The notes under the pieces were generated by a model. It saw nothing but the letters and a program-made list of their open reading frames with translations. It made no database searches and had not been told where the DNA came from. The translations under genes and the position numbers were made by a program. A stretch of DNA of 24,468 bases from a virus: positions 1 through 24,468 of IMG/VR virus record IMGVR_UViG_3300047551_002086; one strand, written 5' to 3'. Below, piece by piece: positions 265 through 1,538 of the stretch. Position 1 is the first letter of the stretch; the number at the start of each line of letters is the position of its first letter.

Positions 265-288
265 TAACATTCAACTGTAGGAGGATGT

Positions 289-369
289 ATGTGTAATTGT
301 AGTAATGGTGTCTGCATTTGCGGCACCGGATGTACTTGCACTTGTTGCTTAACCCACATAACCGATTAA
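289..369 (+). CDS. Metallothionein-like cysteine-rich mini-protein (26 aa)
   Basis: A 26-codon ORF with eight cysteines at residues 2, 4, 9, 11, 15, 17, 19 and 20: three C-x-C pairs and a C-x-C-x-C-C run, separated by small polar residues and glycine, with one histidine (H23). There are no aromatic residues and no lysine or arginine. This is the composition of a metallothionein, a peptide that wraps Zn(II), Cd(II) or Cu(I) in thiolate clusters. The start is supported by AGGAGG at 279-284 and by a 12-base context (280-291, GGAGGATGTATG) identical to the one at the start of the gene at 4131. It lies 24 bases after the Hsp20 gene, so the two are probably co-transcribed, and its stop lies beside the stem-loop that begins at 356. 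Seen: the ORF, ribosome site and cysteine spacing. Inferred: metal binding. It matches no metallothionein family I can name and could instead be a disulfide-rich or redox peptide. Confidence 0.68.
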   Translation: MCNCSNGVCICGTGCTCTCCLTHITD

Positions 370-396: not shown

Positions 397-413
397 CTGA
401 CTCAAAACCCTAA
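393..413 (+). CDS. Possible six-residue leader peptide (MSDSKP)
   Basis: ATG at 393 is followed by five codons and TAA at 411-413. The Shine-Dalgarno match at 372-383 is unusually strong, but its AGGAGG core ends 15 bases before this ATG, further than is usual. The stop falls 18 bases before the terminator stem at 431, an arrangement reminiscent of a leader peptide in an attenuator. The peptide has no run of regulatory codons. It may simply be a chance ORF; confidence is low. Confidence 0.22.
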   Translation: MSDSKP

Positions 414-430
414 ATTATGGAGTTTAATAA

Positions 431-467
431 ACGGGCCGGTACCCACAAAGTCCGGCCTCGTTTTTTT
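431..467 (+). terminator. Intrinsic (rho-independent) terminator
   Basis: GGCCGG (434-439) pairs perfectly with CCGGCC (452-457). The stem can be extended by a G433-T458 wobble and outer pairs around a bulged C459. A 12-base loop separates the arms, and seven T residues (461-467) follow at once. It would end transcripts from the Hsp20 and cysteine-rich genes. The next gene's ribosome site (GGAGA, 468-472) abuts the T run, so read-through or a regulated decision here would control that gene. Confidence 0.85.
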
Positions 468-476
468 GGAGAATAT

Positions 477-1538
477 ATGAGTAAGATTTTTAATTTCAAA
501 ACACTGGTTTCATTCTCTGCATTAGCAATCGCCGGATGTGCTGCACTGTTCTCTGTGACGGGTATTGGTACCTTGTTTGCAGGAGCAGCCACCGCTGCGA
601 TGATTATGGCTAGTGCTTTGGAATTAGGTAAATTAGTTGGTATTTCTTTCCTGTATCGTTATTGGTCAGAAATTCCAAAAGCATTAAAGAGTTATATGTT
701 GGTCGCAAGTATCATTTTAATTGGTATCACATCCGCAGGTATTTACGGATACTTGTCATCGGCATATGCGAAGGTTGCAGCAGAACCATTAAAGATGAAT
801 GCAGATATCCAAATCTATAATTCGCAAGCGACAACATTAGACGAAGAAATCAAACGTAAGACCGCCCGATTAGACCAAATTATTTCTCTTCGTGGTCAGC
901 AAGAAAATCGTATTGATAATCTTATCAGTAAAAGTACCACGGGGTCAAATACGGCAATTCGGTCAGCACAAAACAGTCTGGCAGAACTGAATAGAACGGC
1001 AACCACATTACAACGTGAAATTAACCAAACATCTGCTCAACGTGATAGTTTGAAAGCACGTAGTCTAACGAAGGAAGTGGAAATTAACACTAATTCTGAT
1101 ATTGGAACATTCGTCTATATCTCCAACGCAATTGGTGTTGAACTAGATACTGTGGTTAAATGGTTTATATTAATTATTGTTTTGGTATTTGACCCACTTT
1201 CTATCTGCTTGGTATTAGCATATAATTTCTTACAGAAGCGTGGGGAAGTAACAGAGGAACCTAAACAATTAGCTATTTTTAATGAAAAAATAATTACGGA
1301 ACCAGAACCAGTCGTAGAAGATATCAAGCAAGAGGAGATCGTCGTTCCTGAGCCAATTGTGCAAAAGGAAACGATGATAAAACGCGAAGAAGAACCCGTA
1401 GTAGAAGAACGTAAAATAATACCATTTAATAATGGGGATTGGAATGAAGATGACCCATTTCCACAATATATGACTAAAGCAGAGACAGAAGAAGTATTAG
1501 AAAAGTGGTGGGCTAAGAGAAATGGTGTTATAAGATAG
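477..1538 (+). CDS. Membrane protein with long coiled coil (353 aa), unknown function
   Basis: I do not recognise a named family. The start at 477 is chosen because GGAGA lies just upstream and because an earlier in-frame ATG (417) would translate through the terminator stem. Hydrophobic segments lie at about residues 9-29, 31-58, 73-96 and 226-250. Between the third and fourth is a polar region (about 112-205) rich in Gln, Glu, Lys and Asn with heptad-like spacing, probably coiled coil. After the last segment is an acidic, Pro-Glu-Val-rich tail (about 256-325) and a short tryptophan-bearing end (EKWWAKR). This suggests an inner-membrane protein with a large helical domain on one side and a charged tail on the other. 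It lies between a terminator and a promoter, so it may be a separate unit. An IAGC at residues 18-21 resembles a lipobox but sits inside a hydrophobic run. Roles in membrane remodelling, superinfection exclusion or lysis timing are possible but not shown. Confidence 0.75.
   Translation: MSKIFNFKTLVSFSALAIAGCAALFSVTGIGTLFAGAATAAMIMASALELGKLVGISFLYRYWSEIPKALKSYMLVASIILIGITSAGIYGYLSSAYAKVAAEPLKMNADIQIYNSQATTLDEEIKRKTARLDQIISLRGQQENRIDNLISKSTTGSNTAIRSAQNSLAELNRTATTLQREINQTSAQRDSLKARSLTKEVEINTNSDIGTFVYISNAIGVELDTVVKWFILIIVLVFDPLSICLVLAYNFLQKRGEVTEEPKQLAIFNEKIITEPEPVVEDIKQEEIVVPEPIVQKETMIKREEEPVVEERKIIPFNNGDWNEDDPFPQYMTKAETEEVLEKWWAKRNGVIR

Follow-up and report, generated by a model that had tools for sequence, protein, structure and literature searches.

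Cysteine-rich micro-ORFs behind phage hsp20 and in unrelated phage contexts: candidate metallothionein-like peptides

Between an hsp20 gene and a membrane-protein gene, a virus record of 24,468 bases (IMG/VR record IMGVR_UViG_3300047551_002086, analyzed over its full length and hereafter called the window) holds a very short reading frame crowded with cysteine codons. This locus raises the question of whether the frame is a gene and, if so, whether its product could handle metal, as a preliminary description of the sequence had proposed from its metallothionein-like composition. Since the record contains baseplate-wedge and tail-lysozyme genes (PHROGs), it is attributed to a contractile-tailed phage. 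The features around the frame, all on the plus strand, are as follows.

1–264, +: Hsp20 (alpha-crystallin) gene, 3′ part, cut by the window edge (PF00011, E 5.8e-18; PHROG 432, Hsp20)
279–284, +: Shine-Dalgarno (SD) sequence AGGAGG of the cysteine-rich ORF (from the sequence; a GGAG-type SD also precedes the relatives' ORFs)
289–369, +: cysteine-rich micro-ORF, 26 aa, MCNCSNGVCICGTGCTCTCCLTHITD (from the sequence and its conserved place in relatives)
356–366, +: 5′ arm of a conserved RNA hairpin, ACATAACCGAT, in which the last codons of the ORF lie (covariation, folds)
372–383, +: loop sequence AGGAGGTGATCC, an extended SD complementary to the usual 16S rRNA 3′ end
386–396, +: 3′ arm of the hairpin, ATCGGTTATGT (93.1% of cells paired; four pairs with changes on both sides)
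433–467, +: terminator-like G+C-rich inverted repeat, then a T run (read directly; partly recovered by consensus folding)
477–1538, +: next gene, membrane protein with weak DUF4407-like similarity, ATG at 477 (sequence and profile search)
1597–2493, +: UvdE UV-damage endonuclease (PF03851, E 2.9e-51)

The micro-ORF starts with the ATG at 289–291, after a 4-nt spacer behind AGGAGG, and stops with TAA at 367–369; the strong ribosome site described earlier is present, and the range 279–369 given for the gene is right for SD plus ORF, with the ORF alone covering 289–369. The peptide MCNCSNGVCICGTGCTCTCCLTHITD has eight cysteines in 26 residues (31%), one histidine and no phenylalanine, tryptophan or tyrosine, in the layout X-[CXC]-X4-[CXC]-X3-[CXC]-X-CC-X6, so that the C-x-C pairs and the C-x-C-x-C-C run of the preliminary description are all borne out. 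Its small size, cysteine fraction, CxC/CC motifs and lack of aromatics agree with the metallothionein-like composition claimed there, and its spacing is metallothionein-like as well. Dinucleotide shuffling of the whole window (150 replicates) yielded an ATG-initiated ORF of at most 30 aa with six or more cysteines and a Cys share of at least 25% in five cases, and in none of the 150 was such an ORF accompanied by an SD. Judged from the sequence, ORF 289–369 is to be regarded as a real, unannotated coding microgene between two larger genes.

The neighborhood had also been read correctly, with Hsp20 (PF00011) adjoining upstream and the UV endonuclease (PF03851, UvdE) further downstream. The membrane-protein gene probably starts at ATG 477; upstream of it, the frame stays open across the terminator-like repeat as far as ATG 417 (window 417–1538), a possible but unlikely start, and automatic annotation may choose this longer form. 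The inverted repeat at 433–467 was missing from the automated repeat scan because its 12-nt loop exceeds the loop limit of the scan. A second SD-like GGAG lies at window 410–425, just before this repeat, and recurs in most relatives with no consistent ORF behind it.

A total of 80 related IMG/VR loci were fetched via UvdE, and the stretch after hsp20 was read in all of them without the use of any cysteine pattern, which gave 24 distinct hsp20 junctions including the window. A cysteine-rich ORF of 15–26 residues with 4–8 Cys occupied the same place in 21 of the 23 junctions besides the window (22/24 with it), and a GGAG-type SD preceded it in those 22. The preliminary description had staked its case on the same small ORF, with conserved cysteines, being present rather than missing after Hsp20 in close relatives, and this is what the junctions revealed. 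Examples of the clade peptides are MCSCNSGVCTCGTGCTCSCCLTHITD, MCCCVECKCSCCTNHITD, MCSCEICTCSNCLNHIAD, MCSCLICTCHSHITD, MCGCNDCNCGCSTINITY, MCGCGNCSCKCCISTINNVTY and MMCSCGCVYCTCGCGNVTSNY, in which the distances between cysteines vary; the C-x-C pairs are retained, as is, in most cases, a C-x-C-x2-C-x-C core. One of the other distinct junctions (L079) has no ORF between hsp20 and the hairpin, and the locus L016 (4665–4760) carries a Cys-less 19-aa ORF, MIRSFKSAVVNHKNYNRYN, before the hairpin. L016 is a close relative by UvdE, and its Hsp20 is just 53% identical; its hsp20 looks replaced.

Codon-level purifying selection had been proposed as a further check, and seven families of equal-length peptides were compared codon by codon in pairs and the differences summed. 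Cysteine codons differed 78 times synonymously (TGT/TGC) and 6 times non-synonymously, as against about 115 synonymous and 427 non-synonymous differences at non-Cys codons in the same families; because the pairs are not independent, these counts are a description and no statistical test. All six non-synonymous Cys differences came from one family, in which one member lacks its fifth Cys, and the window's own family had eight synonymous and zero non-synonymous differences at Cys codons. Non-Cys codons were relaxed in most of the seven families. The check thus came out as anticipated, with Cys codons changing almost solely synonymously, and the pattern indicates a purifying constraint that is confined to the cysteines while the other residues drift.

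The window peptide is no one-off and has counterparts in many phage contexts. IMG/VR was searched for an SD followed by MCxCxxCxC, and a hit was called short when it was ≤40 aa and outside any longer open frame. Among the matches listed, 58 of 98 distinct viral hits were short and intergenic; with a GGAGG-only SD, the viral figure was 27/37 among the matches listed, compared with 2/72 for cellular sequences (84,980 bacterial and archaeal genomes, same stricter SD) and 0/16 for a serine-codon control pattern behind GGAGG. All members are from metagenomic virus contigs, and the counts are lower bounds or samples. Six pattern hits (L082–L085, L087 and L133) were dropped, as they lay inside longer coding or repeat regions. 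The SD-preceded MCxCxxCxC ORFs occurred in 15 or more phage contexts that seem unrelated to one another, with one Cys ORF found per contig. The members outside the window clade are 10–20 aa long (e.g., MCECKNCTCK, MCKCKDCKCNPCRCK, MCECKQCECESCNCSCCEC and MCNCENCNCDCGCCDK) and lie in differing gene neighborhoods; their first four cysteines were imposed by the search pattern, and their further cysteines, short length, intergenic position and SD-to-stop architecture are free of it. Taken together, all relatives span 10–26 aa with 4–9 Cys. The residues other than cysteine are K, E, N, D, G, S and T, and aromatics account for 1 of 459 residues outside the window clade.

A functional stress-protection set with Hsp20 and UvdE, raised in the preliminary description, is a conjecture; in most of these other lineages, the genes beside the peptide differ from Hsp20/UvdE. 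The micro-ORF follows a capsid gene in a contig related to Pelagibacter phage HTVC115P (L114), directly precedes a T7-type terminase gene in L211, and precedes a cytidylyltransferase gene common to T4-like cyanophages in L107; in L123 and L142, it lies upstream of a gene that, from its sequence, is probably a ribonucleotide reductase gene. Three IMG/VR contigs that are relatives of Pelagibacter podophages have an Fe-S scaffold gene of the NifU/IscU type (PF01592, E 2e-50 to 1e-53) adjoining or near MCKCKDC/MCECKEC micro-ORFs.

L175, 1443–1820: NifU/IscU scaffold gene (PF01592), overlapping the peptide start
L236, 88–504: NifU/IscU scaffold gene (PF01592), directly after the peptide
L211, 3077–3445: NifU/IscU scaffold gene (PF01592), two genes upstream of the peptide

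The MCxCxxCxC pattern was absent from the 18 named isolate genomes that were searched whole (pelagiphages, cyanophages and other phages), and there is thus no cultured example among them.

Our preferred reading, which we hold with a probability of roughly 0.7, is that the product is a translated, trans-acting, metal-binding thiolate peptide that works like a minimal metallothionein. Its own SD would drive translation of the ORF into a 26-residue apo-thiol peptide, which would fold solely when it takes up soft metal ions, with Cu(I) or Zn(II) the likeliest, and CXC-X4-CXC-X3-CXC-X-CC would form a small Cys-thiolate cluster. Inside the infected cell, the peptide would act in trans as a minute buffer of metal and thiol, and its short tail, LTHITD, would be set at least partly by the overlapping RNA hairpin arm. 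Translation, metal binding, the identity of the metal, the buffering role and the benefit to the phage are what we infer from these patterns. One point against it is that the number (4–9) and spacing of cysteines vary among members, which leaves no single conserved cluster. By the usual definition of metallothioneins, the peptide has the low mass, the high Cys fraction, the conserved CxC/CC motifs and the scarcity of aromatics. The relatives in many unrelated phages suggest that viruses may carry some of the smallest metallothionein-like proteins known.

The preliminary description knew of no family with exactly this spacing. That is accurate for the exact pattern, and the spacing nearly equals that of the short fungal Cu-metallothioneins (PMC4755600), which have 26 residues and seven cysteines in the layout X2-[CXC]-X5-[CXC]-X3-[CXC]-X2-C-X3 and were once regarded as the shortest metallothioneins (PMC4755600). 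Like these proteins (Binz-Kägi family 8, from Neurospora crassa and Agaricus bisporus), the phage peptide has 26 residues, is rich in CXC and has near-equal spacing (PMC4755600), but it differs in having eight rather than seven cysteines, a terminal CC and a first spacer one residue shorter, so that the exact family 8 pattern is approached without being matched; moreover, its relatives at the same position have quite different spacing, unlike family 8. As a signal of common descent, no Pfam or NCBIfam match was obtained, and 26 residues are too short to decide. The likeness is probably convergence, which is the safer view because so few residues are involved and sister phages show other spacings. 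Bacterial metallothioneins (SmtA, PflQ2MT and TvMT; PMC10612145) resemble the phage peptide in being genetically encoded, small, Cys-rich and soluble; however, they are larger and bind 3–4 Zn, and SmtA has a zinc-finger fold (PMC10612145) for which the phage peptide is too short. Neither an SmtA-type profile nor any other was matched in Pfam and NCBIfam at E ≤ 1, the PDB gave no match at E ≤ 10, no family was found in PHROGs, and a single DUF3678 match (E 0.59) was set aside; the profile and PDB negatives carry little weight because the peptides are so short and Cys-rich. We claim that the peptide works like a metallothionein, not that it belongs to the fungal or bacterial families.

The overlap of the 3′ end of the micro-ORF with an RNA hairpin arm was absent from the preliminary description. 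The loop of this hairpin contains the ORF stop TAA plus AGGAGGTGATCC, and the distance from the end of the stop to the GGRGG core of the loop is −1 to 4 nt in 27/27 members listed. Across 29 distinct sequences, the 11-bp stem formed standard pairs in 93.1% of cells, as against 24–35% with slid partners; four stem pairs had changes on both sides, mainly A-U to G-C in pair three and C-G to U-A in pair eight, and none of 500 shuffles came up to the real alignment in cells changed on both sides or in covariation score. In L079, L370 and L371, the hairpin lies directly 3′ of hsp20 with no micro-ORF between them. Because the hairpin persists without the micro-ORF, which sits between hsp20 and the hairpin, we assign the hairpin to the hsp20 3′ UTR. 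L370 represents a lineage that lacks the Cys ORF; there, the hsp20 hairpin and terminator are immediately followed by a gene (685–1182) that starts with MKRECGDCTVCC and whose product resembles a CxxCxxCC zinc/iron-chelating domain (PF03692, E 0.012, below the cut-off).

GGRGGTGATC occurred once each in 13 of 18 relative contigs (G001–G018, 43–178 kb), at a position consistent with the hairpin in 12 of the 13 and inside a coding region in one (G009, L369). Since it occurs singly in a contig and almost always at the hairpin, it is not the ordinary SD of these phages. No plausible start codon was found at normal spacing after the loop SD. A mini-ORF driven by this SD (MSDSKP in the window) was rejected, as the sister clade has ACG in place of the 3′-arm ATG and reading frames are not preserved, and a T4 RegB cleavage site in the GGAG loop was not supported, as a RegB match above the cut-off was found in 0/10 relatives. 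Rfam returned nothing at E ≤ 5 for the hairpin region. As a guess, the hairpin might be a 30S-binding element that affects the stability or turnover of the hsp20 transcript.

The same overlap gives weight to the main rival, which is a cis-acting leader or trailer peptide. In this view, ribosomes translating the Cys-rich ORF would be held up by scarce Cys-tRNA or by metal bound to the nascent chain, and the hairpin overlapping the ORF would open or close in response; control would fall on the SD-loop, on the 3′ end of the transcript or on the membrane-protein gene downstream, in the manner of CutF or CruR at copper genes. The hairpin covaries, the last codons and stop of the ORF lie inside it with the stop close to the loop SD in every member listed, and a sensor of Cys codons would likewise keep cysteine while letting TGT and TGC vary. 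There is also precedent in CutF, which unfolds a stem-loop shielding the cutO SD (PMC9973294); like the phage locus, CutF and CruR combine a small Cys-containing ORF with an SD-bearing stem-loop (PMC9973294). However, they have a CxxxC motif, and CutF also has an export signal, a Pro-rich stall motif and a downstream copper gene (PMC9973294), none of which is found here; rather than an SD occluded in a stem and a regulated start, the phage hairpin has its SD in the loop, no start codon at normal spacing behind it and an unconserved ATG/ACG in the 3′ arm. Nor is the ORF always joined to the hairpin, which occurs without a Cys ORF in the three loci above and with the Cys-less ORF in L016, while the MCxCxxCxC ORFs of other phages lack such a hairpin, precede unrelated genes and mostly leave 0–20 nt to the next gene, with no room for an attenuator. 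A leader in cis, which gains from the overlap and loses from hairpins without peptides and peptides without hairpins, therefore seems unlikely to us, although it deserves more credence than the other alternatives.

Slightly less probable is a redox or structural peptide, whose cysteines would form disulfides or scavenge oxidants or which would be a minor virion component. Several lineages do place the gene among structural or packaging genes, such as the capsid gene in L114 and the T7-type terminase gene in L211, but C-x-C and C-C motifs packed this densely are usual in metal thiolate clusters and disfavor ordered disulfides in a chain of 10–26 aa, the bacterial cytosol is reducing, and the NifU/IscU neighbors point to metal. 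We consider it improbable that the peptide is a zinc-knuckle-like regulator in which the core CxCxxCxC, with its four cysteines, would hold a single Zn and dock onto a protein or RNA: this core is the minimum in most members, and some have just four cysteines (MCECKNCTCK, MCSCLICTCHSHITD), yet the sequence outside the cysteines is not conserved, which implies that no binding surface is maintained, and members with 7–9 Cys exceed a single Zn site. That the ORF is spurious and kept merely through its overlap with the conserved hairpin and spacer is hardly credible; it is short, and the hairpin arm restricts its C-terminal codons, but its codons for cysteine stand 5′ of the hairpin and have changed synonymously without loss of the residue, and the ORF recurs in hairpin-less phages with clean controls.

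With the trans-acting metal-binding peptide as the preferred reading, a broader proposal can be made, tentatively and at somewhat less than even odds. Micro-metallothioneins of 10–26 aa with an MCxCxxCxC start would be widespread in viruses, having repeatedly arisen or spread in tailed phages, would be nearly absent from cellular genomes and would include some of the shortest that are genetically encoded; in one clade, the gene would be fused to an hsp20 3′-UTR hairpin that, with a perfect extended SD in its loop, would be a ribosome-binding 3′-UTR element of a new kind. Fremin, Bhatt and Kyrpides (2022) reportedly predicted unannotated short phage genes by comparative genomics. As described, their catalog has in common with the present micro-ORFs that its phage genes are short and unannotated, and a review citing it mentions neither cysteine nor metal (PMC11323111). 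Within the papers covered, our literature search on phage metallothioneins found nothing on target, and priority is uncertain. Against INPHARED, BLASTN of the locus gave no match, and TBLASTN of the peptide gave none either, the latter being uninformative because of low-complexity filtering.

If metal is bound, phages would own some of the smallest metallothioneins, in genes below the size handled by standard gene callers and profile libraries, and would possess a hidden, recurrent means to handle copper, zinc or iron freed during the dismantling of the host. Diverse in spacing, with lengths from 10 to 26 residues and 4 to 9 Cys, the peptides form a natural series on the minimum length of a metallothionein, and the hairpin with an extended SD in its loop but no gene following offers a further oddity that can be tested. 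In two more distant relatives (L057, 7082–7201; L073, 4156–4275), a 39-aa Cys/His-rich ORF with an SD, starting with MKHAHTHQCNNCSHCCPVCCKC, lies downstream of uvdE; it had zero Pfam matches and is possibly another candidate for a metal-binding micropeptide.
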